Shown piece after piece: positions 11,835 through 61,084 of a stretch of 64,000 nucleotides of DNA. Source of the DNA: a virus. Location: positions 1 through 64,000 of the IMG/VR virus record IMGVR_UViG_3300042379_000363; one strand, 5' to 3'. Each line of letters starts with the position of its first letter. Position 1 is the stretch's first letter. The notes below the pieces were generated by a model. It had not been told where the DNA came from. It worked only from the letters and a program-made list of their open reading frames with translations, and searched no databases. The position numbers and the translations under genes are program-made.

Positions 11835-12536
11835 ATGATAAAAATACCTTTAACCAAAATATTGTTTCTTGATATAGAAACTGTTGGTGGATGTAAAAAC
11901 TATACCGAGTGTAAAGTTAACAATCCTAATGTTGCGAGTCAATTTGAGAAATATTTTGATTGGTTCCAAAAACGATTTCCTGAAGATGCCGGATTTTCTG
12001 CCGATAAAGTTTTTGAAAAAAGAGCCGCATTAGTTCCTGAGTTTGCAAAAATTGTTTGTGTTAGTGTTGCCTTTGTTATGGACAATGGTGATATTAAAAA
12101 ACAATCGTTTTCAGGTGATGATGAAAAGGTTCTATTAAAAGAATGTCAAACATTACTTAATCGTTGTGGTAAATTAGATTTTTATCTATGTGGACACAAT
12201 CTTAAGAATTTTGATATCCCTATGTTGGCAAAACGAATGATTATCAACGGATTAATGCCTCCAACACTTTTACCATCTTACGACACAAAACCGTGGGAGA
12301 TTAAAGCTATCGATACCAAAGAAATTTGGCAATACGGAGCATATACGGCAATTGGTTCGTTAGACTTAATGTGTACTTGTATGGATGTTCCATCACCAAA
12401 GGAAGGTGATGTTACCGGAGATAAAGTTCACGACGCATATTGGAACAAAAATATGTTACCTGAAATCACCGCTTACTGTGAACGAGACGTACTTGTACTA
12501 ATTGACGTAATAAAAAAATTAAAAGAATTAGAATAA
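11835..12536 (+). CDS. PolB-type 3'-5' exonuclease (DnaQ-like fold)
   Basis: 233 residues, matching the stand-alone exonucleases related to the proofreading domain of family B polymerases. Visible motifs: Exo I with DIET at residues 10-13, Exo II as GHNLKNFDIPML, and Exo III as YCERDVLVLIDV near the C-terminus. The acidic residues that bind the two metal ions (D, E, D, D) are all present, so it should be active. Probable role is DNA repair, proofreading or turnover of host DNA. It is followed with a one-base TAATG overlap by the dUTPase gene, so the two nucleic-acid genes are coupled inside a sugar-rich operon. Confidence 0.88.
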   Translation: MIKIPLTKILFLDIETVGGCKNYTECKVNNPNVASQFEKYFDWFQKRFPEDAGFSADKVFEKRAALVPEFAKIVCVSVAFVMDNGDIKKQSFSGDDEKVLLKECQTLLNRCGKLDFYLCGHNLKNFDIPMLAKRMIINGLMPPTLLPSYDTKPWEIKAIDTKEIWQYGAYTAIGSLDLMCTCMDVPSPKEGDVTGDKVHDAYWNKNMLPEITAYCERDVLVLIDVIKKLKELE

Positions 12537-13141
12537 TGTTAGACAATTTTGAAGAGTTAGAAAATTTAAGAAAAAAATTACTTAATTTACAAGAGACATT
12601 CTCATCCGAAACAGGTGAGGTGGATTACGATGACATTTTGAAAGAAATGGATATTGATTTAGAACAAATTGAAAAAGATATTGCCGAGGGGGCAACTAAA
12701 TTAGATTTACCTTATGAGATACTTCACCCGGATGCTGTTCACCCAAAATATAACTACGATAGTGATTCGGGGTTTGACTTACATTCTGTTGAGGATGTTG
12801 TTATCCCACCGTTTGGTAGAGCGTTAGTTCCTAGTGGACTATGTTTCGACATTAAAGACGGTTTTGAGATACAAGTTAGAACAAAAAGTGGGTTGGCAAT
12901 CAACCAAGGACTTATGGTTTTAAATTCACCGGGAACCGTGGATAATGGTTACACCGGAGAAGTTAAAGGAATCATCTTTAATACAAACCCAACTGAGGTT
13001 AGAATACCAAAAGGTATGAAATTCGGACAAGCGGTTCTTTGTCCCGTTGTAAACGGTGCTTGGGTAGGATTAAATCAAGTTGAGAAAATAAATAAAAAAG
13101 AACGGGGTGAAAACGGATTTGGTTCAACAGGATTAGTATGA
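12536..13141 (+). CDS. dut: dUTPase (dUTP diphosphatase)
   Basis: 201 residues. All five motifs of trimeric dUTPases are visible in order: DSGFDLHS (1), RTKSGLAINQG (2), GTVDNGYTGEVK (3), GMKFGQAV (4) and RGENGFGSTG (5, the C-terminal lid). The enzyme converts dUTP to dUMP and diphosphate, keeping uracil out of phage DNA and feeding dTMP synthesis. About 70 extra N-terminal residues, acidic and predicted helical, precede the core, which is unusual for a typical 140-150 residue dUTPase. Starts at the TAATG overlap with the exonuclease gene and ends with an ATGA overlap with a glycosyltransferase gene. Confidence 0.95.
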   Translation: MLDNFEELENLRKKLLNLQETFSSETGEVDYDDILKEMDIDLEQIEKDIAEGATKLDLPYEILHPDAVHPKYNYDSDSGFDLHSVEDVVIPPFGRALVPSGLCFDIKDGFEIQVRTKSGLAINQGLMVLNSPGTVDNGYTGEVKGIIFNTNPTEVRIPKGMKFGQAVLCPVVNGAWVGLNQVEKINKKERGENGFGSTGLV

Positions 13142-14535
13142 TAACAGTAATTTATTCAACACATAAAGACGAACAATATAATAACAAATTTAGACAACAT
13201 TTGTTACAAACTGTTGGTTTAAAAAATGTTCAAATATTGGAGTATGTTAACCATAACCAATTTAGTTTAACTGAAGTTTATAACAAAGGATTAAACGAAT
13301 CAGTTAATGATATTATTGTGTTTTGTCATAATGATATCATTTTTGAAAAAGAATATTGGGGTAAACGAGTTTTAGAACATTTTACCAAAAAACCTGAATA
13401 CGGTATTTTAGGTGTTGCTGGAACATCATATTACCCTAATTCCGGAAGATGGTGGGACATACAGGGTGAGATGATTGGTCAAGTTTATCATCAGCACGAA
13501 GGTAAAAAATGGTTATCTGAATATAATAAACCATTTGGGTCAAAAATAATAGATTCCGTTATTGTTGATGGTGTTTTCTTTGCCGTTAAAAAAAGTAATT
13601 TAAAAACTAATTTTGATGAATCATTTACCGGATTCCATTTTTATGATACATCATTTTGTATGAGTAATCATTTATCCGGAGTTAAAGTTGGAACAATTTC
13701 AAATGTCCCGTTAACACATCTTTCTATTGGTATGACCAATAATCAGTGGGAACAGAATAGATTATTATTTTTAGAAAAATACAAAGAAAAATTACCTATT
13801 AAATTAGAATCAAAATACCCGATAAATAAAATTAATCCAAAGTTACCGTTAGTTTCTGTTATAATTCCGATTTACAATTATGGGTTACAATTCGAAAAAT
13901 CGTTACAATCAGTATTTGATTCTACCTATAAAAATGTAGAGATAGTAATTGTTGATGACGGGTCAACCGATACTTACGTTAAATTAAAATTAGAGAGTAT
14001 TAAAGACCATCCAAATATTAAAATCATATATCAAGAAAATCAAGGACCATCTTCAGCAAGAAATAATGGGGTTAAAAATTCAAATGGTATTTTTATACTA
14101 CCATTAGATGGTGATGACACTATTCATCCGGATTATATTCAATTCTGTGTTAACATTTTAAAAAACAATAAAACCATTAGTCCGGTTTATTGTGATACAC
14201 ATCATATAGGTCAAATACAAGGAATCGAAAAAAGACCTGAATGGTCTATAGAAAGATTAAGAGAAGGTCCGTTTATAGTTAATTGTTCAATGTTTCATAA
14301 AGAAGCGTTTGATGTTTGTGACGGGTATGATGTTACATTGAAAGGATGGGAAGATTATGATTTATGGATTAGAATGGGATTGAAGGGATATTCGGGGAAA
14401 AGAATACCAAAACCTCTTTTTGTATATTTTCACCACGAAAGTGACGGAACCGTATCAACAGAGGCGAATAACAACCAACAAGAGTTGTATAATAAAATAA
14501 TGAACAAAAATTTTAAGAATGAAAATTTTAATTAA
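13138..14535 (+). CDS. Two-domain GT-A glycosyltransferase
   Basis: 465 residues with two glycosyltransferase-like halves. Residues 1-225 resemble the Glyco_tranf_2_5 type (VIYSTHKDEQY, VFCHNDIIF, ILGVAGTSYYP). Residues 235-460 are a classical family 2 domain: LVSVIIPIYNYG, IVIVDDGSTD, GPSSARNNGV and a DGDD metal-binding motif, then GWEDYDLWIRM near the end. The C-terminal half should bind a nucleotide sugar with Mn or Mg. The fusion suggests two sequential transfers by one polypeptide, or one active and one acceptor-binding half. Overlaps dut by four bases and the next gene by 17, in an operon of sugar genes. Confidence 0.88.
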   Translation: MITVIYSTHKDEQYNNKFRQHLLQTVGLKNVQILEYVNHNQFSLTEVYNKGLNESVNDIIVFCHNDIIFEKEYWGKRVLEHFTKKPEYGILGVAGTSYYPNSGRWWDIQGEMIGQVYHQHEGKKWLSEYNKPFGSKIIDSVIVDGVFFAVKKSNLKTNFDESFTGFHFYDTSFCMSNHLSGVKVGTISNVPLTHLSIGMTNNQWEQNRLLFLEKYKEKLPIKLESKYPINKINPKLPLVSVIIPIYNYGLQFEKSLQSVFDSTYKNVEIVIVDDGSTDTYVKLKLESIKDHPNIKIIYQENQGPSSARNNGVKNSNGIFILPLDGDDTIHPDYIQFCVNILKNNKTISPVYCDTHHIGQIQGIEKRPEWSIERLREGPFIVNCSMFHKEAFDVCDGYDVTLKGWEDYDLWIRMGLKGYSGKRIPKPLFVYFHHESDGTVSTEANNNQQELYNKIMNKNFKNENFN

Positions 14536-15196
14536 GTTTCCTACTAGAGGACGAACATTTAAATTCTTTAATGTTTTAAAAATGTATTACACAATGTGTG
14601 ATGATTTAGATAATATTAAATTTTTAGTAACATTAGACACTGATGATAAAGTTATGAATCAACCGGGTGTTATTGAGATGTTTAAAGAATACAAAAACTT
14701 ATCATACATTTATGGTGAAAGTAAATCAAAAATCGAAGCCATAAATAGAGATATGGAAACCGAAAATGATTGGGATATTGTCTTATTAGCATCTGATGAT
14801 ATGATACCAAAAGTTAAAGGTTACGATACAATCATTAGAAAAAAAATGAAAGAAAAATATCCGGATACTGATGGTGTTTTATGGTTTAATGATGGTTATC
14901 AAGGTAATAGATTGAATACTTTATGTATTTTAGGTAAAAAATATTATGAGAGGTTTAATTACATTTATCATCCAGAATATAAATCTTTATGGGCGGATAA
15001 CGAATTTATGGATGTTGCAAACTTATTAAATAAACAAACTTATTTTAATGAACTAATAATTAAACATGAACATCCTGATGTTGGATTCGGTGGTCGAGAC
15101 AATATACATTTAGAAAATTCTAAAAATGATTATATTGATAAAAATTTATATCTAAAAAGAAAATCAATAAATTTTGAATTAAATAAAAATTTATAA
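14519..15196 (+). CDS. GT-A-like glycosyltransferase
   Basis: 225 residues, small for the family. It starts LIKFPTRGR, typical of a group of phage and Bacteroidota GT-A proteins, and shows FLVTLDTDD and LLASDDMIP, the second being the likely metal- and sugar-nucleotide-binding acid cluster (residues near 87-95). The ATG lies 17 bases inside the preceding glycosyltransferase gene, so translation is coupled. I infer a glycosyl transfer role from the fold signature and neighbours; donor and acceptor are unknown. Confidence 0.75.
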   Translation: MKILIKFPTRGRTFKFFNVLKMYYTMCDDLDNIKFLVTLDTDDKVMNQPGVIEMFKEYKNLSYIYGESKSKIEAINRDMETENDWDIVLLASDDMIPKVKGYDTIIRKKMKEKYPDTDGVLWFNDGYQGNRLNTLCILGKKYYERFNYIYHPEYKSLWADNEFMDVANLLNKQTYFNELIIKHEHPDVGFGGRDNIHLENSKNDYIDKNLYLKRKSINFELNKNL

Positions 15197-15202
15197 TAAA
15201 AT

Positions 15203-15976
15203 ATGAATAAATTAATAATAAACCGAAACGAAGGTTTTTTTTCGGATTTTTTAACATTATTAGCGGGTATAATGTATTTTAACGATAATAATCAAAAATT
15301 TAATGTTGAATGGTTTAATTATATGTATAGTGATTTATCTAACGAAAATCTATATGATAAATTTTTTAAACAAGTTTATGATATTGAACCAATTACGTCA
15401 ACATTTATTAATTTAACCCCTTATGGGTATTATTTCCCTGAAGCTATTGGAAATGGACTTGATGAATTAACTATTTTAAAAAATTTAAAAACCCCCTCTC
15501 AAACATTGATTGATTTAAAATTAATGGATAATATTTTTTTTAACAATATTGATAAAAATTATTTTAAAGGGTTAAAAACTTTAGGTGTTCAAAAAAGAGG
15601 TACAGACCATAGTACTCACGGAGCATTATTATCTGATGAAATTATTTTGTCAAATATTAATGAAGAATTTAAACATAACAGTTATGATAAAATTTATTTA
15701 ATGACTGATGATAATAATTCTTTGAATTTTTTTAAAAAAGAATTAGGTGATACTTTAATTTATACTGAATCAAGAAGGGGTGATTCTAATGTTGGTTTAC
15801 ATTTTTCAAATCTACCAAATAAATCTAAATTAGCCGAAGAAGTTATTGTTGATTCTATTTTATTATCATTAACTGATTTTAAATTAGTAAGTAGAAGTAA
15901 CGTATCAACTTTTTCATTATTAAATAATTTAAATGAAAATTTTAAATATATGGATAAACACATACATTATAGTTAA
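15203..15976 (+). CDS. Fucosyltransferase-like (NodZ/O-FucT type) protein
   Basis: 257 residues. The C-terminal half resembles the GDP-fucose-using NodZ/O-FucT superfamily: LGVQKRGTDHSTHG (an arginine followed by TD, as in the donor-binding HxRxTD-like motif), KIYLMTDDNNSLNFF, LIYTESRRGDSNVGLHF, and a late SRSNVSTFSLL segment. The N-terminal half (EGFFSDFLTLLAGI) is consistent with a GT-B acceptor domain. The presence of Gmd and Fcl/ColC-like genes 3 kb downstream fits use of a GDP-6-deoxyhexose such as fucose or colitose. Identity to a proven enzyme cannot be judged from the sequence alone. Alternative: another GT-B enzyme. Confidence 0.65.
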   Translation: MNKLIINRNEGFFSDFLTLLAGIMYFNDNNQKFNVEWFNYMYSDLSNENLYDKFFKQVYDIEPITSTFINLTPYGYYFPEAIGNGLDELTILKNLKTPSQTLIDLKLMDNIFFNNIDKNYFKGLKTLGVQKRGTDHSTHGALLSDEIILSNINEEFKHNSYDKIYLMTDDNNSLNFFKKELGDTLIYTESRRGDSNVGLHFSNLPNKSKLAEEVIVDSILLSLTDFKLVSRSNVSTFSLLNNLNENFKYMDKHIHYS

Positions 15977-15980
15977 TAAT

Positions 15981-16850
15981 ATGAAAAACAATATAACATT
16001 ATATAATCATTTCCACAATGGTGATATATTTTACTCAAGAATATTAATTAATATTTTAAAAAACCATTATAACATTACATACTATCATAATCTACAATCA
16101 CCATTATTTGAAGATTTACCTGAAGTTAATGAAATTGTGGGTATCCCCGGAAATTATGATATTCACAACACAAATTTAGAAAATAATATTGTGAATACTT
16201 GGATAGGACAAAAACAAATGATTTATGTATCACACCAACCTATTCCTGGTTGTTCATTTATTAATCATTTTAAATTAGTTACCGATATTTGTGATTTCTA
16301 TAATATTGAATTAGATAATGATTTTAATAAGTATTTACCCTCTGTGATTAATACTAATTTAAAATCGCATGATAATATTGTAAACAAAATAAAAGAATTA
16401 AAACTAAAATATGATTTAATTATTTTAGTTTGTGACGGTAATGTAAATTCAAGTCAATCACATAATTTTAGTTTCACACCTATTGTTGAAAATTTGTCTG
16501 AAAATAACCCTAATTGTTTATTTTTAAGTACTAATCAATTATATGAAAATAATTCTAATGTTATTACAACATATCCACAAATAACAGAATCATTACCTGA
16601 TTTATTACAAATTAGTCTAATTTCAAATCATTGTGATATTATTGTAGGAAGGGCTTCCGGACCATTTTGTTTTACACATACTAAAGAAAATTTTAATGAC
16701 GATAAAAAAACATTCATTTCATTCACATTTAATGAATCTGAAGGTATATTTTATTATGATGGTAAAAATAAAAATTTATGGTCAAATAATTTAAATTATC
16801 CTAATATGATAACAACAATACAAAATGAAATAAATTTAAAAATTAAATAA
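15981..16850 (+). CDS. Putative glycosyltransferase-like protein of GT-B (heptosyltransferase-like) character
   Basis: 289 residues from ATG 15981; I reject the in-frame ATG at 15933, which lies inside the previous gene. The sequence begins ITLYNHFHNGDIFYSRIL, a GD-containing loop often seen in heptosyltransferase-like GT-B proteins, and near residue 225 has SNHCDIIVGRASGPFCFTH, which corresponds to the donor-site segment of that family (a residue pair followed by SGP). Very AT-rich, like its neighbours. The call rests on these two segments and on position in the sugar operon; substrate unknown. Confidence 0.6.
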   Translation: MKNNITLYNHFHNGDIFYSRILINILKNHYNITYYHNLQSPLFEDLPEVNEIVGIPGNYDIHNTNLENNIVNTWIGQKQMIYVSHQPIPGCSFINHFKLVTDICDFYNIELDNDFNKYLPSVINTNLKSHDNIVNKIKELKLKYDLIILVCDGNVNSSQSHNFSFTPIVENLSENNPNCLFLSTNQLYENNSNVITTYPQITESLPDLLQISLISNHCDIIVGRASGPFCFTHTKENFNDDKKTFISFTFNESEGIFYYDGKNKNLWSNNLNYPNMITTIQNEINLKIK

Positions 16851-16852
16851 TT

Positions 16853-17197
16853 ATGATAGGTGAAAAAATTGAAGAAATAATTAAAAATAAAACATTAGAA
16901 ATTTTAACTAAAAATAAAAATGTTGAATTACCTGATGATATCATTGAAACCGATAATTTAGGTGAGGTGATTGAAAAATTATCCATATTACATTGTAGAA
17001 TGTGGTATTTAGAAGACGCCATTAGTGATGCTAAAACCGACTCTGAAATTGCTGTGTTAAAGAAAAAAATTGACATCTGTTTTAAAAGTAAACGACCTAA
17101 ATATGTTGAGGCAATAAATCGGATGGTTGATAATTCAATAAGTCAAGGTAAATCATTAATTGAGGATTCGGTAAAATTATATAAAGGTGTTGAGTAA
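16853..17197 (+). CDS. DUF4254-like protein
   Basis: 114 residues, helical. The segment EKLSILHCRMWYLEDAISDA followed by IAVLKKKIDICFKSKRPKYVEAIN resembles the core of DUF4254 proteins, which in Bacteroidota are often encoded beside LPS heptosyltransferase genes. That fits its position directly after a heptosyltransferase-like gene. The function of DUF4254 is not known to me. The protein is shorter than most members. It overlaps the next gene by 11 bases. Confidence 0.6.
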   Translation: MIGEKIEEIIKNKTLEILTKNKNVELPDDIIETDNLGEVIEKLSILHCRMWYLEDAISDAKTDSEIAVLKKKIDICFKSKRPKYVEAINRMVDNSISQGKSLIEDSVKLYKGVE

Positions 17198-17966
17198 TTT
17201 AGTAATTGGGAATACATCTCAGTTAAGTCATTATTTCCCCAATGATTATGAAAAAATATCGTCCCGAAACATAGATTTTGCAACACTTTGTTCTAAAAAG
17301 TATGACAAGGTTTTTTTATTATTTGCGGAACAACGAACTTTTTTAAATGAATCTGATGAGTTTTTTATAAAAACTAATTTTGATTATACGTTAGAAGTTA
17401 TTAATAAGTTTAAAGACATCTCAAATAAGGTCATCATTTATTCAACATCAGAATTGTGGAATAAATACGACGGGTGTGTCTCCCTAAGTGATGAGTATAA
17501 CTATAATTACTCACCATATATTAAATCAAAAGAAATTCTCTGTAACTATATTAATCATAACAGAGATGTTTACCCTAACGTAATAATAATCTACCCATTT
17601 AACTTTAATTCTGTTTATAGAAAAGAAGGGTTTCTCTTTGGTAAAATATTTGATTCAATACTGAACGATAAAAAAATATCTATTGGTGATATTAATTTTA
17701 ATAGAGATTTAACCCACCCTAAAAACATTGTTGATGTTTCATTAAAAGCCGATAAAGATTGTATTGTTGGTTTAGGTGAATTAATCAATGTTCAAAAGTT
17801 TATTGAGGACATCTTTACAAAATTAAATAAAAACATTATAGATTACATAGAATACGACGAATCCAATAACTTAAAAATAAAAAGAGGTGGTTATTATAGT
17901 TGCGAAAAAACAATAGATTATAACGACCTAATCAACTTAACAATTAAAGACATATATGAGTATTAA
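17187..17966 (+). CDS. Degenerate extended SDR (nucleotide-sugar epimerase-like)
   Basis: 259 residues, GTG start at 17187 overlapping the previous gene. The layout is that of an NAD(P)-dependent epimerase/dehydratase: N-terminal NLVIGNTSQLSHYF in the place of the glycine-rich loop, VIIYSTSELW in the place of the catalytic Ser strand, and YSPYIKSKEIL containing the Tyr-x-x-x-Lys pair. The usual GxxGxxG is eroded, so cofactor binding may be altered or lost. It sits directly ahead of the ColD-like gene and overlaps it by 11 bases, so it probably acts on the same sugar nucleotide, either as enzyme or as a non-catalytic partner. Confidence 0.65.
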   Translation: MLSNLVIGNTSQLSHYFPNDYEKISSRNIDFATLCSKKYDKVFLLFAEQRTFLNESDEFFIKTNFDYTLEVINKFKDISNKVIIYSTSELWNKYDGCVSLSDEYNYNYSPYIKSKEILCNYINHNRDVYPNVIIIYPFNFNSVYRKEGFLFGKIFDSILNDKKISIGDINFNRDLTHPKNIVDVSLKADKDCIVGLGELINVQKFIEDIFTKLNKNIIDYIEYDESNNLKIKRGGYYSCEKTIDYNDLINLTIKDIYEY

Positions 17967-19107
17967 ACTAGTAAAGGACACTATTGATTTTGATGACATC
18001 ACCAAATTAATAGAATGGTTAAAAACCAATCCAAGATTAACTAAAGGAGAATTAACAACAACTTTTGAGGACTTATGGTCTAAATGGTTAGGGTGTAAGT
18101 ATTCGGTATTTGTGAATTCCGGGTCTTCAGCCAATTTAGCGGCGATTTATTCGTTAATACTATCCGGTAAGTTAAAAAATAATAAAATTATTGTTCCAGC
18201 AGTTTCTTGGGTAACTACTGTGACACCGGCAATACAATTAGGATTAACGCCTATTATGTGTGATTGTGATAAGGATAATTTAGGTTTAGATATTAACCAT
18301 TTAAAAACGTTAATTAAAGAAGAAAACCCTTCCGCAATTATATTAGTTCACGTATTAGGTTTTCCTAATCATATGAAAGAAATCATTGAGCTATGTGAAG
18401 AAAATGATATTTTATTAATTGAGGATACTTGTGAATCTATTGGTTCAAAATACGGTGATAAACATTTAGGAACTTTTGGAGATTTATCAACCTTTTCATT
18501 TTATTTTGGACATCATATGTCAACAATTGAAGGTGGTATGGTATCAACAGATAATGAAGAATTGTATCATATTTTATTATCCATTAGGTCGCACGGGTGG
18601 GACAGAGATTTACCTTTATCGAAACAAAAAGAATTACGCGAAAAATATAAGGTTAATGATTTTAAATCATTATACACCTTTTATTACCCGGGGTTTAATT
18701 TAAGAGCAACTGACTTACAAGCGTTTATCGGAATTCAACAAATGGATAAATTAGACCATATTGTTGAATCTAGATATAAGAATTACATAAGATATAAAGA
18801 AGGTATCAAAAATGATTTTTGGGAGGTTAAACCAACAAGTAATTCCTATGTGTCAAATTTTTCTTATCCTATAATAACTAAAAATCTTGACAGATTGATA
18901 ACTGAATTACAAAATAATGATATCGAATGTCGACCATTAATTTGTGGGTCAATAAACGAACACCCATTTTGGTATGAAAGATATGGGAAACAAGAATTAC
19001 CTAATTCAAAGTTAGTACACGAATATGGTTTATACTTACCAAACAATCACCAAATGACTGAAGAAGAAATAACTAAAGTAATTAAAATTGTTAACGAAAA
19101 TATATGA
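17956..19107 (+). CDS. colD: ColD-like PLP-dependent GDP-4-keto-6-deoxymannose 3-dehydratase
   Basis: 383 residues of the DegT/DnrJ/EryC1/StrS fold. The PLP phosphate-binding loop (VNSGSSANLAAIY, residues 53-65), the ring-binding Asp in LLIEDTCES (D157) and the GHHMSTIEGG segment are visible. At the place of the Schiff-base lysine stands His186, as in ColD and related 3-dehydratases; ordinary aminotransferases have Lys. Further ColD-like features are PAVSWVTT, IRSHGWDRDLP, PGFNLRATD and ECRPLICG. ColD removes the 3-hydroxyl of GDP-4-keto-6-deoxy-D-mannose on the way to GDP-L-colitose. The next two genes supply the preceding and following steps. The family is firm; ColD specificity is inferred from the His, resemblance and context. 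Alternative: a related 3-dehydratase with another substrate. Confidence 0.8.
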   Translation: MSIKLVKDTIDFDDITKLIEWLKTNPRLTKGELTTTFEDLWSKWLGCKYSVFVNSGSSANLAAIYSLILSGKLKNNKIIVPAVSWVTTVTPAIQLGLTPIMCDCDKDNLGLDINHLKTLIKEENPSAIILVHVLGFPNHMKEIIELCEENDILLIEDTCESIGSKYGDKHLGTFGDLSTFSFYFGHHMSTIEGGMVSTDNEELYHILLSIRSHGWDRDLPLSKQKELREKYKVNDFKSLYTFYYPGFNLRATDLQAFIGIQQMDKLDHIVESRYKNYIRYKEGIKNDFWEVKPTSNSYVSNFSYPIITKNLDRLITELQNNDIECRPLICGSINEHPFWYERYGKQELPNSKLVHEYGLYLPNNHQMTEEEITKVIKIVNENI

Positions 19108-20006
19108 AAAAATTATTAGTAACCGGTGGTAATGGTTTAGTTGGTTCTTCCATTACTTCTGATGTAAAAATTGGTAAAGAGTATGATTTGAGAAATATTG
19201 AAGAAACCGATAAAATGTTTGAATACCATAAACCAACTCACGTTATTCATTGTGCCGGTAAAGTAGGTGGTCTTAGTGCCAATATGAATTATAAAGGAGA
19301 GTTTTTTTACGATAACATAATGATTAACACTAACGTTATTGAATCGGCCAGAAAAAATAATGTTAAAAAATTAGTATCATTTTTATCAACTTGTGTATTT
19401 CCGGACAATATTGAATACCCAATAACTGAGAAAAAAATTCACTTAGGAGCCCCTCACTTTTCAAATTACCCATACGCATACGCAAAAAGAATGGCTGATA
19501 TTCAAATAAGAGCTTATAGGGAACAATATGGGTTAGAATATGTGTCAGTAATCCCAACAAACATTTACGGACCAAATGATAATTTTTCATTAGACACCGG
19601 TCACGTAATCCCTATGTTATTACATAAAATGTATAACGCTCAAAGAGATAACGCTGATTTTGTTGTTTGGGGTAGTGGAACACCATTAAGGGAATTTATA
19701 TATTCTAAAGATATCGCAAAATTATCTGAATGGGCCTTAGACAATTATAATGAATCAGAACCTATTATATTCAGTAACTCAAATGAAATTAGTATTAAAG
19801 ATTTGGTTGATTTATTAGTTAATGAGTTTAACTTTAAAGGGAAAGTAATATTTGACAAAACAAAACCTGATGGTCAATTTAGAAAACCATCGGATAATTC
19901 AAAATTAAAATCGTATTTACCTAATTTTGAATTTACCCCAATTGAACAGGGATTAAAAGAAACAATAAATTGGTTTATAGAAAATTATGAAAACACAAGA
20001 AAATAA
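19104..20006 (+). CDS. GDP-fucose synthase / GDP-colitose synthase-like epimerase-reductase
   Basis: 300 residues, extended SDR. N-terminal LLVTGGNGLVG is the NADP-binding loop; GKVGGLSAN, the STC segment (Ser95, Cys97), Tyr124-x-x-x-Lys128, IPTNIYGPNDNF, His167 in GHVIP and WGSGTPLREFIY are all diagnostic of the Fcl (WcaG) family. Fcl makes GDP-L-fucose from GDP-4-keto-6-deoxy-D-mannose by 3,5-epimerisation and 4-reduction; its relative ColC does the comparable step to GDP-L-colitose after ColD. All catalytic residues are present. The adjacent ColD-like gene (ATGA overlap) favours ColC, but Fcl and ColC are hard to tell apart by eye, so no symbol is given. Confidence 0.88.
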   Translation: MKKLLVTGGNGLVGSSITSDVKIGKEYDLRNIEETDKMFEYHKPTHVIHCAGKVGGLSANMNYKGEFFYDNIMINTNVIESARKNNVKKLVSFLSTCVFPDNIEYPITEKKIHLGAPHFSNYPYAYAKRMADIQIRAYREQYGLEYVSVIPTNIYGPNDNFSLDTGHVIPMLLHKMYNAQRDNADFVVWGSGTPLREFIYSKDIAKLSEWALDNYNESEPIIFSNSNEISIKDLVDLLVNEFNFKGKVIFDKTKPDGQFRKPSDNSKLKSYLPNFEFTPIEQGLKETINWFIENYENTRK

Positions 20007-20976
20007 AATTGCTTTAATTACAGGGATTAATGGTCAAGATGGTTCTTATCTTGCAGAATTCTTAATAGAAAAAGGATATGAAGTTCACGGAACTTTAAAA
20101 AGAAATTCAGTAGCAGAAAATCAAACATCAAGATTGGATAAAGTATATGATAAAGTTAAATTACATTACGCTGATTTAACTGACTTATCATCATTAGTAC
20201 GAGTTATTAGTGAGGTTAAACCAATTGAGATATATAATTTAGCCGCTCAGTCACACGTAAGAATATCATTTGACCAACCATTATACACCGCAAATGTTAC
20301 TGGAATAGGAACTTTAAATGTTTTAGAGTCGGTTAAATTATTAGACCCATCTATTAAAATTTATCAAGCGTCATCATCAGAAATGTTTGGTAATTCAATT
20401 GATACCGATGGATATCAAAGAGAAACTACACCATTGAACCCTGTATCACCTTACGGATGTGCCAAAGTTTTTAGTTACAATATTTGTCGTAACTATAGAA
20501 ATTCTTATGGTATGTTCATATCAAACGGAATATTATTCAACCACGAATCACCAAGAAGAGGAACTAACTTTGTAACTAATAAAGTCTGTAAAGAGGCCGT
20601 TAAAATTAAATTTGGATTATCGAATGAACTTAAACTAGGTAACTTAGATGCTACTCGAGATTGGGGACACGCTAAAGATTATGTTAAAGTAATGTGGGAG
20701 ATTCTTCAATTGGATAAACCTGATGATTTTGTATGTGCAACAGGGATATCACATTCAGTACAAGACCTATGTGAGTATGTTTTTGGAAAATTAGATTTAG
20801 ATTGGGAATTATATGTGAAACAAGATGAGAAGTTTTTAAGACCGGAAGAATTACATAATTTAAAAGGTGACCCATCAAAATTAGTAAAAGCAACGGGATG
20901 GACTCACGACTATACCTTTGAAACTATGTTAGACGAAATGATTGAACATTGGTTAACATATTATAAACAACAATAA
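19987..20976 (+). CDS. gmd: GDP-mannose 4,6-dehydratase
   Basis: 329 residues. Very clear Gmd: TGINGQDGSYLAEFL at the N-terminus (NADP-binding), LAAQSHVRISFD, QASSSEMFG with the catalytic Ser/Glu region, SPYGCAK with the Tyr-Lys pair, FNHESPRRG and LDATRDWGHA. It turns GDP-D-mannose into GDP-4-keto-6-deoxy-D-mannose, the branch point for fucose, colitose, rhamnose and perosamine. The gene starts 20 bases inside the Fcl/ColC-like gene. No GDP-mannose pyrophosphorylase is seen in the window, so GDP-mannose probably comes from the host or from elsewhere in the genome. Confidence 0.95.
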   Translation: MKTQENKIALITGINGQDGSYLAEFLIEKGYEVHGTLKRNSVAENQTSRLDKVYDKVKLHYADLTDLSSLVRVISEVKPIEIYNLAAQSHVRISFDQPLYTANVTGIGTLNVLESVKLLDPSIKIYQASSSEMFGNSIDTDGYQRETTPLNPVSPYGCAKVFSYNICRNYRNSYGMFISNGILFNHESPRRGTNFVTNKVCKEAVKIKFGLSNELKLGNLDATRDWGHAKDYVKVMWEILQLDKPDDFVCATGISHSVQDLCEYVFGKLDLDWELYVKQDEKFLRPEELHNLKGDPSKLVKATGWTHDYTFETMLDEMIEHWLTYYKQQ

Positions 20977-20983
20977 TTAAAAA

Positions 20984-21745
20984 ATGGCTGAAGCTAGAAA
21001 AAGAAAACCAACAACAACTCCGACTCCGGAAGTCACCGGTAAACCGGTAAGTAAAAAAGATTTAATTGGTCAAATCATCAGGAGAAAAACTAAAGAAAAG
21101 TTTTTAACAGTAAATCAAAAAAAGTATTACGATACTCTAATTGAAAGTGAAATTACTGTTTGTTCCGGACCAGCGGGCGTTGGTAAAAGTTACATAACAA
21201 TGAAAGCTGCAATTGATTTATTATCAGACCCAAAAACTCCTTATGAGAAAATTATCATTGTTAGACCGGCGGTTGAAGCCGAAGAAAAATTAGGTTCACT
21301 ACCCGGTAACGTAGAAGAAAAATTAGACCCATATATTTTTCCATCATATTATTTATTAAATAAAATTATTGGAAAAGAATCTCGTGAAAAACTTAAAGAG
21401 ATTGAAGTTATTGAAGTATTTGCATTAGCGTTTATGAGAGGTATGAATATTGATAATTCTATTCTAATATTTGAAGAAGGTCAGAATGCCTCGCCAAGTC
21501 AAATGAAACTTCTTTTAACAAGAATTGGGTTTAACAGTAAATTCTTCATATCAGGTGATGTGGAACAATCGGACAAATATAAAAATAAAACCCACAGTGG
21601 TTTATGGGACGCAATCGAAAAGTTTAGAGATGATGACTATGTGTCAACGTTTGAATTTAAAGATAAAAACGATATTGTACGAAACCCATTAATTAGTAAG
21701 ATATTACGTAAATACGATAACGAACCGGATGAGAATAGCAATTGA
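20984..21745 (+). CDS. phoH: PhoH-like ATPase
   Basis: 253 residues. Walker A GPAGVGKS at residues 62-69, the RPAVEAEEKLGSLPG signature of PhoH proteins, Walker B as ILIFEEGQNAS, and FFISGDVEQSD (sensor region). PhoH-like NTPases with an RNA helicase-type core are common in phages. The cellular role in infection is not settled; proposed roles include phosphate response and RNA metabolism. The N-terminal 30 residues are Thr/Pro/Lys-rich and disordered. The gene follows gmd by seven bases and overlaps the next gene by 17. Confidence 0.92.
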   Translation: MAEARKRKPTTTPTPEVTGKPVSKKDLIGQIIRRKTKEKFLTVNQKKYYDTLIESEITVCSGPAGVGKSYITMKAAIDLLSDPKTPYEKIIIVRPAVEAEEKLGSLPGNVEEKLDPYIFPSYYLLNKIIGKESREKLKEIEVIEVFALAFMRGMNIDNSILIFEEGQNASPSQMKLLLTRIGFNSKFFISGDVEQSDKYKNKTHSGLWDAIEKFRDDDYVSTFEFKDKNDIVRNPLISKILRKYDNEPDENSN

Positions 21746-22325
21746 GATTAACGGAGTATTAAGAAATACAATAGATAAAATAGAACAAACCTATCAAAAA
21801 TATATGATAGATAAGACGGAGGGGTTGGAAGACGAAGAATCTTTTAAATATGAGATATCCCTACCGGTAGATAGTTTAAATCTTAGAAATCATTTTAAGT
21901 TCCAAACGGACGAAGAATTATATTCATTTTTATATGAGGAGTTTCCTATGGAAATTTTTGGACACTCTCAATCAACTGAATATTCAACCTTCAATGATTT
22001 AAATGAGATATACGTAAATTTAAGAGATAATCACGACATATTAATTGTGTCTGATGAAATGGGTAGGTCAAAACCATCATCGTTATTCTTCTTATCAAAA
22101 TTTGGTTGTCAGATAGAAAAAGTAAAATTCTATAGTAATATGACAATAAATTCAATGTGGGACGAAATTGATGTTTTACTTACGGCTAATCCCGCCTTAT
22201 TATTAGAACATCCGGATGATAAAATTATCATACAATATCAAACGGAATACAATAAACATATCAAATTAGACAATTCTATAACAACAATTAAAGAATTAGA
22301 ATTTGAATTAACAAAAATAATATAA
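21729..22325 (+). CDS. HAD-like protein with altered motif I
   Basis: 198 residues. The architecture suggests a haloacid dehalogenase-like fold: an N-terminal IAIEINGVLRNT strand where HAD phosphatases have DxDGTL, a ILIVSDEMGRSKPSSLFFL segment as motif II/III region, and a VLLTANPALLLEHP segment as motif IV. Both catalytic Asp of motif I are replaced (Glu and Asn), so phosphatase activity is doubtful. It could be a binding or regulatory protein, or a nuclease-type relative. It overlaps PhoH and is followed with a TAATG overlap by a small unknown gene. Confidence 0.6.
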   Translation: MRIAIEINGVLRNTIDKIEQTYQKYMIDKTEGLEDEESFKYEISLPVDSLNLRNHFKFQTDEELYSFLYEEFPMEIFGHSQSTEYSTFNDLNEIYVNLRDNHDILIVSDEMGRSKPSSLFFLSKFGCQIEKVKFYSNMTINSMWDEIDVLLTANPALLLEHPDDKIIIQYQTEYNKHIKLDNSITTIKELEFELTKII

Positions 22326-59332: not shown

Positions 59333-59732
59333 ATTCGATTTTTTTTTCAAACTCTAATACGATATCTCTTTCGTATAATTTATCTTTGACTGATTGTTCT
59401 GTTTCTCCAAACTTAAACACCAATCTTCTTTGACGTGTGAAATCAACGTCTTCACTTTCGTTTTCCCAACATAATGCGATTATATCATCCATTGAATCTA
59501 TCATCGAAAAATAGTCAGAGTTTTGAATTACTGACATTGTGATTTGGTCATTCTTCAAAACTCCTACTGTTTTTATGTGTTCTATGTCCGGTGGGAGTGG
59601 GTAACCGTTAGACGGTTTTGATTCCCAAGATTCACCCCAAACGTCTTCTGAACTATCCGAGAAAATAAATTCATATATGTTATCACCTTTATAATTAGGA
59701 CCTAATTCATTAACATATATTAAATAACTCAT
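59322..59732 (-). CDS. Unknown protein (136 aa)
   Basis: 136 residues, acidic, beta-rich at the start (YLIYVNELGPNYKGDNIYEF) with an unusual Trp-rich DVWGESWESKP segment and a C-terminal helix. No family recognised. It overlaps the upstream acidic protein gene by one base and the following gene by 11, so it is translated as part of the run 61084-55212. By position it may be a neck or tail-completion protein. Confidence 0.68.
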   Translation of the reverse strand: MSYLIYVNELGPNYKGDNIYEFIFSDSSEDVWGESWESKPSNGYPLPPDIEHIKTVGVLKNDQITMSVIQNSDYFSMIDSMDDIIALCWENESEDVDFTRQRRLVFKFGETEQSVKDKLYERDIVLEFEKKIEYEH

Positions 59733-61084
59733 TATATAACCTGACCTTTTGTATTAACTCTTAATTGTTTGTCATTCATTTCAAATACTAAATTTTGTCT
59801 GTTTGTTTTACCAACCAACTTAGCGTTTGGATATTTTTCCATTAATTTTCTAGCACCAACTTCTTGAGAGATACTTTCAGACAATTGTTTTATTTTATTA
59901 ATTTTAGCTTTTTTATTTTCAGTTACTAATTTAGATTGTCTTTTTTTAGATTCTAATAATTGTTGTTCTTTATCGTTCAATTTAAAATAACCTTCTATAA
60001 TTTTATCAACTTTAGATTCAGTAAAAATTCCTTCAATCATATCTTCAATGTGACCTGAGTGTTTAGAGTCAATATCAGGATGATTTAAACTTCTATGTTT
60101 TGGGTGTCTTGGTTTAAAATCAAAATCTTTTTCTAAATTAATTTCACTAAATTCGTCATCATCAAAATCTCTGAATCTTGATTTCATTTCAAAATCATCA
60201 AAACCTTCACCCATTTCTCCTTCAGGGGCAACCGGTTCTTCATCTCCCATTTCGTCACCAAAATCAGCTTCATTATCACCCATATCATCAGGGTTAAAAT
60301 CTCCCATACCTTCATCTTCAGTACCTTCAATTTTATTAACAATTTCTTCTTTGTCTTCATCATCAATAGATTCTAAATCTATTGCGGACAAAATTGAGTT
60401 AATAACATATTTTGAATCTTTAGATGTCATATCTTGACCTTCTTCTGTTTCTTGGAACGCTCTTAATTTTTGAGCTAATTTACCTGTCAATTTTTGAATA
60501 GATTTTAAAGTAACTTCTTCATTGTTGTCGTCATCTTCCATATCATCACCTAAATCCATATCTTCAGGTGCCGGTTCTGACATCTCTTCAGGTGCCGGAG
60601 CGGGTGCCGGAGCAGGAGCGGGTGCCGGAGCAGGAGCCGCAGATGGAGCGGGTGCCGGAGCAACTTGTTCGTCAGTTTCCCCACCTTTCATTTTTAAAAT
60701 GTATTTGGTTGCATCGTTTTCACTTTCATAAAATAAATTAACGTTTTTCTCACTACCTTCGTTAACGTTAACTTCTTTAGCAACTAGGTTAAGACGTTTC
60801 AACGCTTGAGAATATGAAGAATAATATTTTCTATTTTTCATAGGCTCCATATAATCGAACTCATTAGCTGATTCATTTATACTACTTTTAAGTACGTAAC
60901 CATTTCTTTCCTTATCAATTTTATAAGTTCTACCGTTCGCTAAAACTTTAGTATATTCTGTAGATTTATCTTCATTAATAGGGTTTGGAATATTCTCCTT
61001 ATATCTAGCGATTTCCATGATACGTTGAACTTTTTCCATTCCTTGTAGTTTTTCGCTACCAACCGGTTTTAAATTGTTTCCCAT
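59732..61084 (-). CDS. Acidic scaffold- or internal-type protein with Ala-Pro linker
   Basis: 450 residues. N-terminal 135 residues helical and mixed charge with INE sites (NPINE, SSINE); residues 140-170 are a pure Ala-Pro stretch (PAPAPAPAP); 170-310 strongly acidic (DMDLGDDMEDDDNNEE); the C-terminal 130 residues helical and basic. The domain plan is like that of the scaffold protein encoded at 37916-39427 (helix, acid block, basic helix), so it may be a second core or internal protein. First gene of the terminase transcription unit apart from the three small genes upstream. It has its own TATTTATA element. Confidence 0.7.
   Translation of the reverse strand: MGNNLKPVGSEKLQGMEKVQRIMEIARYKENIPNPINEDKSTEYTKVLANGRTYKIDKERNGYVLKSSINESANEFDYMEPMKNRKYYSSYSQALKRLNLVAKEVNVNEGSEKNVNLFYESENDATKYILKMKGGETDEQVAPAPAPSAAPAPAPAPAPAPAPAPEEMSEPAPEDMDLGDDMEDDDNNEEVTLKSIQKLTGKLAQKLRAFQETEEGQDMTSKDSKYVINSILSAIDLESIDDEDKEEIVNKIEGTEDEGMGDFNPDDMGDNEADFGDEMGDEEPVAPEGEMGEGFDDFEMKSRFRDFDDDEFSEINLEKDFDFKPRHPKHRSLNHPDIDSKHSGHIEDMIEGIFTESKVDKIIEGYFKLNDKEQQLLESKKRQSKLVTENKKAKINKIKQLSESISQEVGARKLMEKYPNAKLVGKTNRQNLVFEMNDKQLRVNTKGQVI
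60585..60660 (-). repeat. Ala-Pro coding low-complexity repeat
   Basis: About 75 bp of ggagc / ggtgcc units on the plus strand, GC-rich in an AT-rich genome; encodes the APAPAP linker. Confidence 0.85.

Follow-up and report, generated by a model that had tools for sequence, protein, structure and literature searches.

A sugar-nucleotide gene run in a T4-like phage

We analysed a 64,000-nucleotide stretch of viral DNA (the window; positions 1 to 64,000 of IMG/VR record IMGVR_UViG_3300042379_000363), in which a reading made from the sequence alone had noticed three overlapping genes at positions 17956–20976, for Gmd, a ColD-like protein of the DegT fold and an Fcl/ColC-like reductase, and had proposed that they form a closed cassette for GDP-L-colitose. 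The complete virus record comprises 175,757 bases and gives T4-type portal, terminase and gp23 matches, marking it as a T4-like phage. Inspection of the open reading frames bore out the three-gene block: all lie on the plus strand, the DegT and Fcl frames overlapping by 4 bases and the Fcl and Gmd frames by 20. Because each frame has a Pfam or NCBIfam match with an E value of 3e-73 or better, and relatives of the block are found repeatedly in other viral contigs, a chance origin of the three frames is excluded.

The block sits inside a longer forward gene run (12536–22325; gaps between genes of -44 to +7), in the order dUTPase, two-domain GT2, GT_225, NodZ257, orf305, orf114, the short-chain dehydrogenase/reductase (SDR) SDR259, DegT, Fcl, Gmd, PhoH and one further gene (Table 1). 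The cassette as first delimited had thus left out SDR259, orf114, orf305 and the NodZ-like gene of the same run. Across the whole record there is a single DegT gene, and GDP_Man_Dehyd is matched three times, by Gmd, Fcl and SDR259, all in this block. The phage record gave no match to NTP_transferase; GDP-mannose is therefore probably derived from the host, as had been supposed.

Table 1. Sugar-nucleotide and glycosyltransferase genes of the run, with the His186 codon
Feature	Position	Strand	Remarks
Two-domain GT2-type glycosyltransferase	13138..14535	+	Pfam
Glycosyltransferase (GT_225 in the gene order)	14519..15196	+	phrog_14945
NodZ257, GT23-like (FUT8/NodZ) fucosyltransferase homologue	15203..15976	+	
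orf305, predicted GT-B fold, GT9/heptosyltransferase-like	15933..16850	+	
orf114, weak DUF4254 match	16853..17197	+	recurrent companion of SDR259 and dehydratase
SDR259, compact Gmd-like SDR, putative 4-ketoreductase	17187..17966	+	GTG start
Predicted ColD-type DegT-fold nucleotide-sugar 3-dehydratase	17956..19107	+	383 aa; His186 replaces the pyridoxal phosphate (PLP) lysine
His186 codon (aligned to ColD His188)	18511..18513	+	computed from ORF start 17956
Fcl, predicted GDP-L-fucose synthase, human GFUS type	19104..20006	+	300 aa
Gmd, GDP-mannose 4,6-dehydratase	19987..20976	+	329 aa

Enzyme classes of the DegT-fold protein, Gmd and Fcl

The nearest solved structures of the DegT protein are those of E. 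coli ColD/WbdK (2gms, E 2.6e-66), and alignment confirmed that its His186, the first histidine of an HH pair, takes the place of the PLP lysine opposite ColD His188, a place held by N in 3b8x and by K in 2r0t. Passages of PMC8987622 give the lysine-to-histidine exchange as a mark of 3-dehydratases, and the absence of a [2Fe-2S] cluster as a mark of ColD. The phylogeny proposed with the sequence-only reading came out in its favour: among 188 DegT-like rows, 164 carry His and 24, aminotransferase-like, carry Lys; a single change splits them, and the window protein falls on the His side, as do E. coli ColD and the Fe-S enzyme E1 (quick method with midpoint root, support 94 at the His/Lys fork, some Lys rows on long branches; the tree covers sequences above 330 aa and 80 bits from outside loci L001–L044, with near-copies removed). 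Flavobacterium phage immuto, whose gp23 is among the best matches, has two WecE-annotated genes within positions 1–150000 of its 160410, and the one placed in this tree has Lys.

The pocket residues distinguish the two kinds of His enzyme: W85, R217, R250, E324 and P327 of the window protein match ColD at places where E1 differs, and the Fe-S cysteines of E1 at C251 (the place of R217), C253 and C261 are unmatched, E1 C193 being matched alike in the window protein and in ColD. Because of these pocket residues and missing cysteines, we consider the protein to be of ColD type rather than E1 type. It lies outside the E. coli ColD clade, which has three rows and includes the viral L285; the window protein, ~36% identical to ColD, belongs to a separate 130-row clade that mixes viral and bacterial proteins. 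Judged by its sequence, it is very probably a 3-dehydratase, ColD-like in class and not in clade.

The identity of Gmd was never in serious doubt: it scores 390 bits against Pfam GDP_Man_Dehyd and 399.3 bits against NCBIfam gmd (slightly below the cut-off of 415), and the motifs SSSEMFG, SPYGCAK and NHESPRRG are present. Fcl, at 247 bits under its NCBIfam cut-off of 500, has all of the expected catalytic residues (S95, C97, Y124, K128 and H167), as had been noted; we discarded these as a discriminator between Fcl and ColC, the E. coli ColC and Fcl having an identical set. The window Fcl is 49% identical to the human GDP-fucose synthase, as against 36% for E. coli K-12 Fcl and 29–30% for ColC of O55/O111. 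In the Fcl tree the window protein falls into a 27-row group with human GFUS (support 100/96), and E. coli ColC stands on a long branch in the opposite half. The assignment of the Fcl-like protein as ColC is therefore not supported, and, given its grouping with the human GDP-fucose synthase, the simplest reading is that it probably makes GDP-fucose.

SDR259, its alternation with FclB and a two-branch model

Directly before the dehydratase gene lies that of SDR259, a protein of 259 aa. Profile comparison by hhalign gave scores of 78 to Gmd, 38 to a bacterial short SDR and 30 to Fcl, and in its predicted structure (predicted local distance difference test score, pLDDT, 91.8) the nearest structures are those of Gmd. 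S/T87, Y111 and K115 are conserved in all 56 rows, a number that includes the window protein as well as its copy L003. Set beside an Rmd-type 4-ketoreductase, SDR259 thus has the SDR fold and the S/T, Tyr and Lys residues, and it lacks an intact GxxGxxG motif.

SDR259 genes travel with the dehydratase in viral contigs. Among 57 distinct copies (from 79 stretches analysed, L031 left out of the best 80 of 82 matches), 44 have a His-type dehydratase (>350 bits) no further than four genes away, in 32 cases adjacent, and 14 have an Fcl within the same distance. Near the bacterial dehydratases SDR259 was found within three genes in 0 of 70 loci, a search confined to these loci rather than to bacterial genomes at large. 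The bacterial short SDR (~260 aa) does occur there, within three genes of the dehydratase in 17 of the 70 (among L048–L127), in carriers that include Rhodobacterales, Rhizobium and Pelagibacter; it has a His before Val/Ile-Tyr in all 13 sequences aligned and is a separate partner family. We considered SDR259 as the phage version of this protein and rejected the idea on its closer relation to Gmd. SDR259 also accompanies the other dehydratase clade, as seen in L285 (6001–9600), where the dehydratase groups with E. coli ColD and SDR259 lies three genes upstream.

Other dehydratases are instead accompanied by FclB, an epimerase/reductase homologue that is 41–45% identical to the window Fcl. In the wider clade of the window protein, 66 non-redundant dehydratases were compared (>540 bits, >360 aa, near-copies removed): SDR259 lies within four genes in 41, FclB in 16, both in none and neither in nine (Fisher p 2.4e-9, uncorrected for kinship). 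Many of these loci were fetched via SDR259 or FclB, so both classes are inflated while their mutual exclusion is not. On the dehydratase tree the partner labels need 11 changes, and the starred branches force at least eight for SDR259; the sister dehydratases of L036 and L037, for example, have unlike partners. In L302 (6001–6915), FclB is followed directly by Gmd and there is no dehydratase among the genes listed around it, an arrangement from which FclB may also make GDP-fucose.

The transferases follow the same division. The predicted GT-B protein orf305, nearest to GT9/WaaC, is present in 23 of the 41 SDR259 loci and in none of the 16 FclB loci; inside the window's 35-row clade the counts are 9/19 and 0/16 (p 0.0015, uncorrected for kinship). 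NodZ257 remains under the Pfam NodZ gathering score (22.8 against 28.3 bits), and its family profile finds FUT8 (1e-11), NodZ (3.5e-9) and POFUT2 (1.5e-4). This suggests that the reductase and the transferases are exchanged as a set, which a change of sugar would predict. The pairing of SDR259 with the dehydratase and its alternation with FclB are the new part of this locus, the enzymes being otherwise of known kinds.

SDR259 is, from its sequence and linkage, a better candidate than the window Fcl for the dehydratase's partner, and would finish a dideoxysugar. The reading we favour, with a confidence that is evenly balanced, is a phage glycan operon in which two branches part from a single intermediate, one leading to GDP-fucose and the other, via SDR259, to a GDP-3,6-dideoxyhexose. 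Gmd turns GDP-mannose into GDP-4-keto-6-deoxymannose, and this product, made from host GDP-mannose, would be the common intermediate. In the first branch, Fcl would epimerise and reduce it to GDP-L-fucose, the putative donor for NodZ257. In the second, the DegT-fold His enzyme would strip the 3-hydroxyl group in a ColD-type reaction that depends on pyridoxamine phosphate and uses no Fe-S cluster; SDR259 would then reduce the 4-keto group to give the GDP-3,6-dideoxyhexose, which orf305 may transfer. The most likely targets of these sugars would be the surface glycans of the infected host, or else the virion. What the sequences show is the gene set, the class of the His enzyme, the grouping of Fcl, the linkage and the SDR259/FclB alternation; the substrates and products, the role of SDR259 as terminal reductase, the pairing of transferases with sugars and the acceptor are predictions. 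In passages of PMC7029224, glycosyltransferases of T4-like SAR11 phages are proposed to alter the host O-chain and so exclude other phages; by analogy this is the most likely use here, and decoration of virion or DNA may also occur.

A number of observations weigh against this two-branch reading. Firstly, the glycine motif of SDR259 is degenerate (GNTSQL), the second and third Gly being lost and the first kept in 56 of 56 rows, and Glu89 of the Gmd type is retained in 48 of 56, as in a dehydratase. Secondly, Gmd lies within four genes in all 16 FclB loci and in 20 of the 41 SDR259 loci (p 0.00015), although nine of the 21 SDR259 loci without a nearby Gmd have a strong Gmd match elsewhere in the record (22 records were searched, those of the 21 loci and L148). 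Thirdly, NodZ257 is distributed like orf305 (9/41 SDR259 loci, 0/16 FclB loci), and the idea that it tracks Fcl was not borne out, NodZ257 being present in 3 of 11 SDR259 loci with Fcl and 6 of 30 without; for both reasons its role in the fucose branch is unproven. Fourthly, the GFUS group that holds the window Fcl also takes in FclB and some of the bacterial Fcl homologues that neighbour a dehydratase; such homologues occur in both halves of the Fcl tree, which by itself therefore does not settle the product. Finally, 4 of 21 distinct FclB copies (one cut by a contig end) have no dehydratase nearby, a count that excludes 29 of the 54 FclB-fetched stretches, in which no gene labelled FclB exceeded the threshold, and lineage partly separates SDR259 from FclB loci (GT270, GT351), a partial confounder of the alternation.

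The last of the Fcl observations bears on the original proposal that Gmd, the ColD-like enzyme and Fcl acting as ColC make GDP-L-colitose, with SDR259 assisting or doing other work. We regard this as unlikely, though still the strongest of the alternatives. The three genes do overlap in a single block, Fcl and ColC have catalytic residues in common, dehydratase-linked Fcl homologues lie on both sides of the tree, and each of the 16 FclB loci brings FclB, dehydratase and Gmd together in a short span of genes. Moreover, all three of Gmd, Fcl and dehydratase are present in 43 of the 79 viral stretches examined (from the best 80 of 581 confirmed viral candidates, copies not removed) and in 19 of 70 bacterial loci (80 genome loci kept, less 10 without a scored DegT frame). 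Against it stand the supported placement of the window Fcl with GFUS, far from the long ColC branch, and the 30 of 41 SDR259–dehydratase loci that lack an Fcl within four genes, a count confined to that span. The proposed cassette is thus supported in its Gmd and its ColD-type enzyme, and not in its closure by Fcl. With SDR259 the better finishing candidate, colitose becomes one option and not the default product: the sugar of the second branch may be colitose or a non-epimerised 3,6-dideoxyhexose.

SDR259 may even be a dehydratase itself. It could be a 4,6-dehydratase reduced in size, whose product, a 4-keto-6-deoxy sugar, would serve the DegT enzyme as substrate, leaving Gmd and Fcl for GDP-fucose only; LegB and LegC are such a dehydratase/DegT pair of another pathway. 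Its closeness to Gmd, the retention of Glu89 alongside Y111 and K115 in most rows, and the scarcer Gmd near SDR259 than near FclB all agree with this. We nevertheless judge it quite improbable: the six rows with Met for Glu89 all have a DegT dehydratase nearby, in the adjacent position, SDR259 alternates with an epimerase/reductase homologue, and a second 4,6-dehydratase would be redundant with the window Gmd unless its substrate differs.

Very unlikely, in our view, is that the phage makes GDP-fucose only and that the substrate of the DegT enzyme is a CDP-, dTDP- or UDP-sugar supplied by the host. Paratose, tyvelose and abequose are CDP sugars. Their routes are served by E1 according to passages of PMC8987622, and GDP-fucose genes of phages have already been described (PMC9602691, in the passages seen), which both accord with such a division of labour; the ColD-type pocket without Fe-S cysteines and the nearness of Gmd to the dehydratase in all FclB loci and about half of the SDR259 loci speak against it.

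Returning to the two-branch reading, we tentatively suggest a bolder form, which is rather less probable than the model itself. SDR259 may found a family of compact GDP-sugar reductases whose members have so far come from viruses; with Gmd and the dehydratase it would make a GDP-linked 3,6-dideoxyhexose other than colitose, for example the non-epimerised 3,6-dideoxy-D-mannose (as GDP-tyvelose); phages would repeatedly swap SDR259 and its glycosyltransferase for the FclB type, and so change the sugar displayed. If the two-branch model is true, phages import whole rare-sugar pathways and swap the sugar-defining last enzyme as a module, surface sugars that matter in phage–phage and phage–host competition become testable, and a compact enzyme family for 3,6-dideoxyhexose synthesis is added. 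If the GDP-fucose branch alone works, the locus adds a further example to the phage glycan genes already known.

Some features of the surroundings may be added. The guanine-plus-cytosine content is ~25% over the glycan genes at 14001–18000, as compared to a window mean of 32%, and 22% in NodZ257 and orf305. orf114 remains under the Pfam DUF4254 gathering score (20.9 against 27 bits), and 24 of its 32 distinct copies have SDR259 as well as a DegT gene no more than three genes away. The neighbour after PhoH (21729–22325) is conserved in related phages and has no Pfam match, its HAD-like label being assigned by eye only. Most of the 12 gene starts inspected are preceded by AT-rich stretches with no GGAGG-type site, which we take to suit a Bacteroidota host, as a candidate only. 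Searches against phages with window positions 1–25000 for near-identical DNA, and with 59732–61084 by tblastn, gave no match.

Comparison with known systems

Cyanophage S-SCSM1 resembles this phage in carrying Gmd, a GDP-fucose synthase and a NodZ-type fucosyltransferase, so that phage GDP-fucose genes together with NodZ are already on record (PMC9602691, in the passages seen); it differs in that those passages contain no 3-dehydratase and the words colitose and aminotransferase are absent from that paper. No phage colitose or 3,6-dideoxyhexose route is described in the titles and abstract openings listed by our literature search, which falls short of showing its absence from print.

For SDR259, the known enzyme to compare is Rmd, the GDP-4-keto-6-deoxy-D-mannose reductase. 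Its structures 2pk3 and 6x3b share the Gmd-like SDR fold and are structural matches 29 and 35 of SDR259, which departs from them in its compact length, its degenerate glycine motif and an identity of 14–18% over the fold.

The GDP-L-colitose pathway of E. coli O55/O111 (Gmd-ColD-ColC) is alike in having Gmd, an Fe-S-free 3-dehydratase with the Lys-to-His exchange and an adjoining gene of the Fcl family. The phage differs from it in a dehydratase of another clade, a GFUS-like Fcl and the presence of SDR259, no further SDR being listed directly beside ColC/ColD in the E. coli clusters. Those clusters also list a mannose-1-phosphate guanylyltransferase and a phosphomannomutase, whereas the phage record lacks an NTP_transferase match (phosphomannomutase was not searched for).

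The closest phage parallels call for a correction to the statement of the sequence-only reading that no described phage was known to carry the whole route. Synechococcus phages ACG-2014f and S-CAM7 carry Gmd, Fcl and dehydratase consecutively, together with glycosyltransferases, and their dehydratases fall on the His side of the tree; the genes are annotated as nucleotide-sugar epimerases and as aminotransferase or 3-dehydrase, the S-CAM7 dehydratase being a 'putative CDP-4-keto-6-deoxy-D-glucose-3-dehydrase' in two records. Unlike in the window, the order is Gmd-Fcl-dehydratase, the Fcl is closer to E. coli K-12 Fcl (48–49%), the dehydratase belongs to another subclade (35–38% identical to that of the window), and there is no SDR259 match within the 17-kb stretches. 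Together with the 43 viral stretches that hold all three genes, these cyanophages indicate that this phage is not alone in having the gene set.

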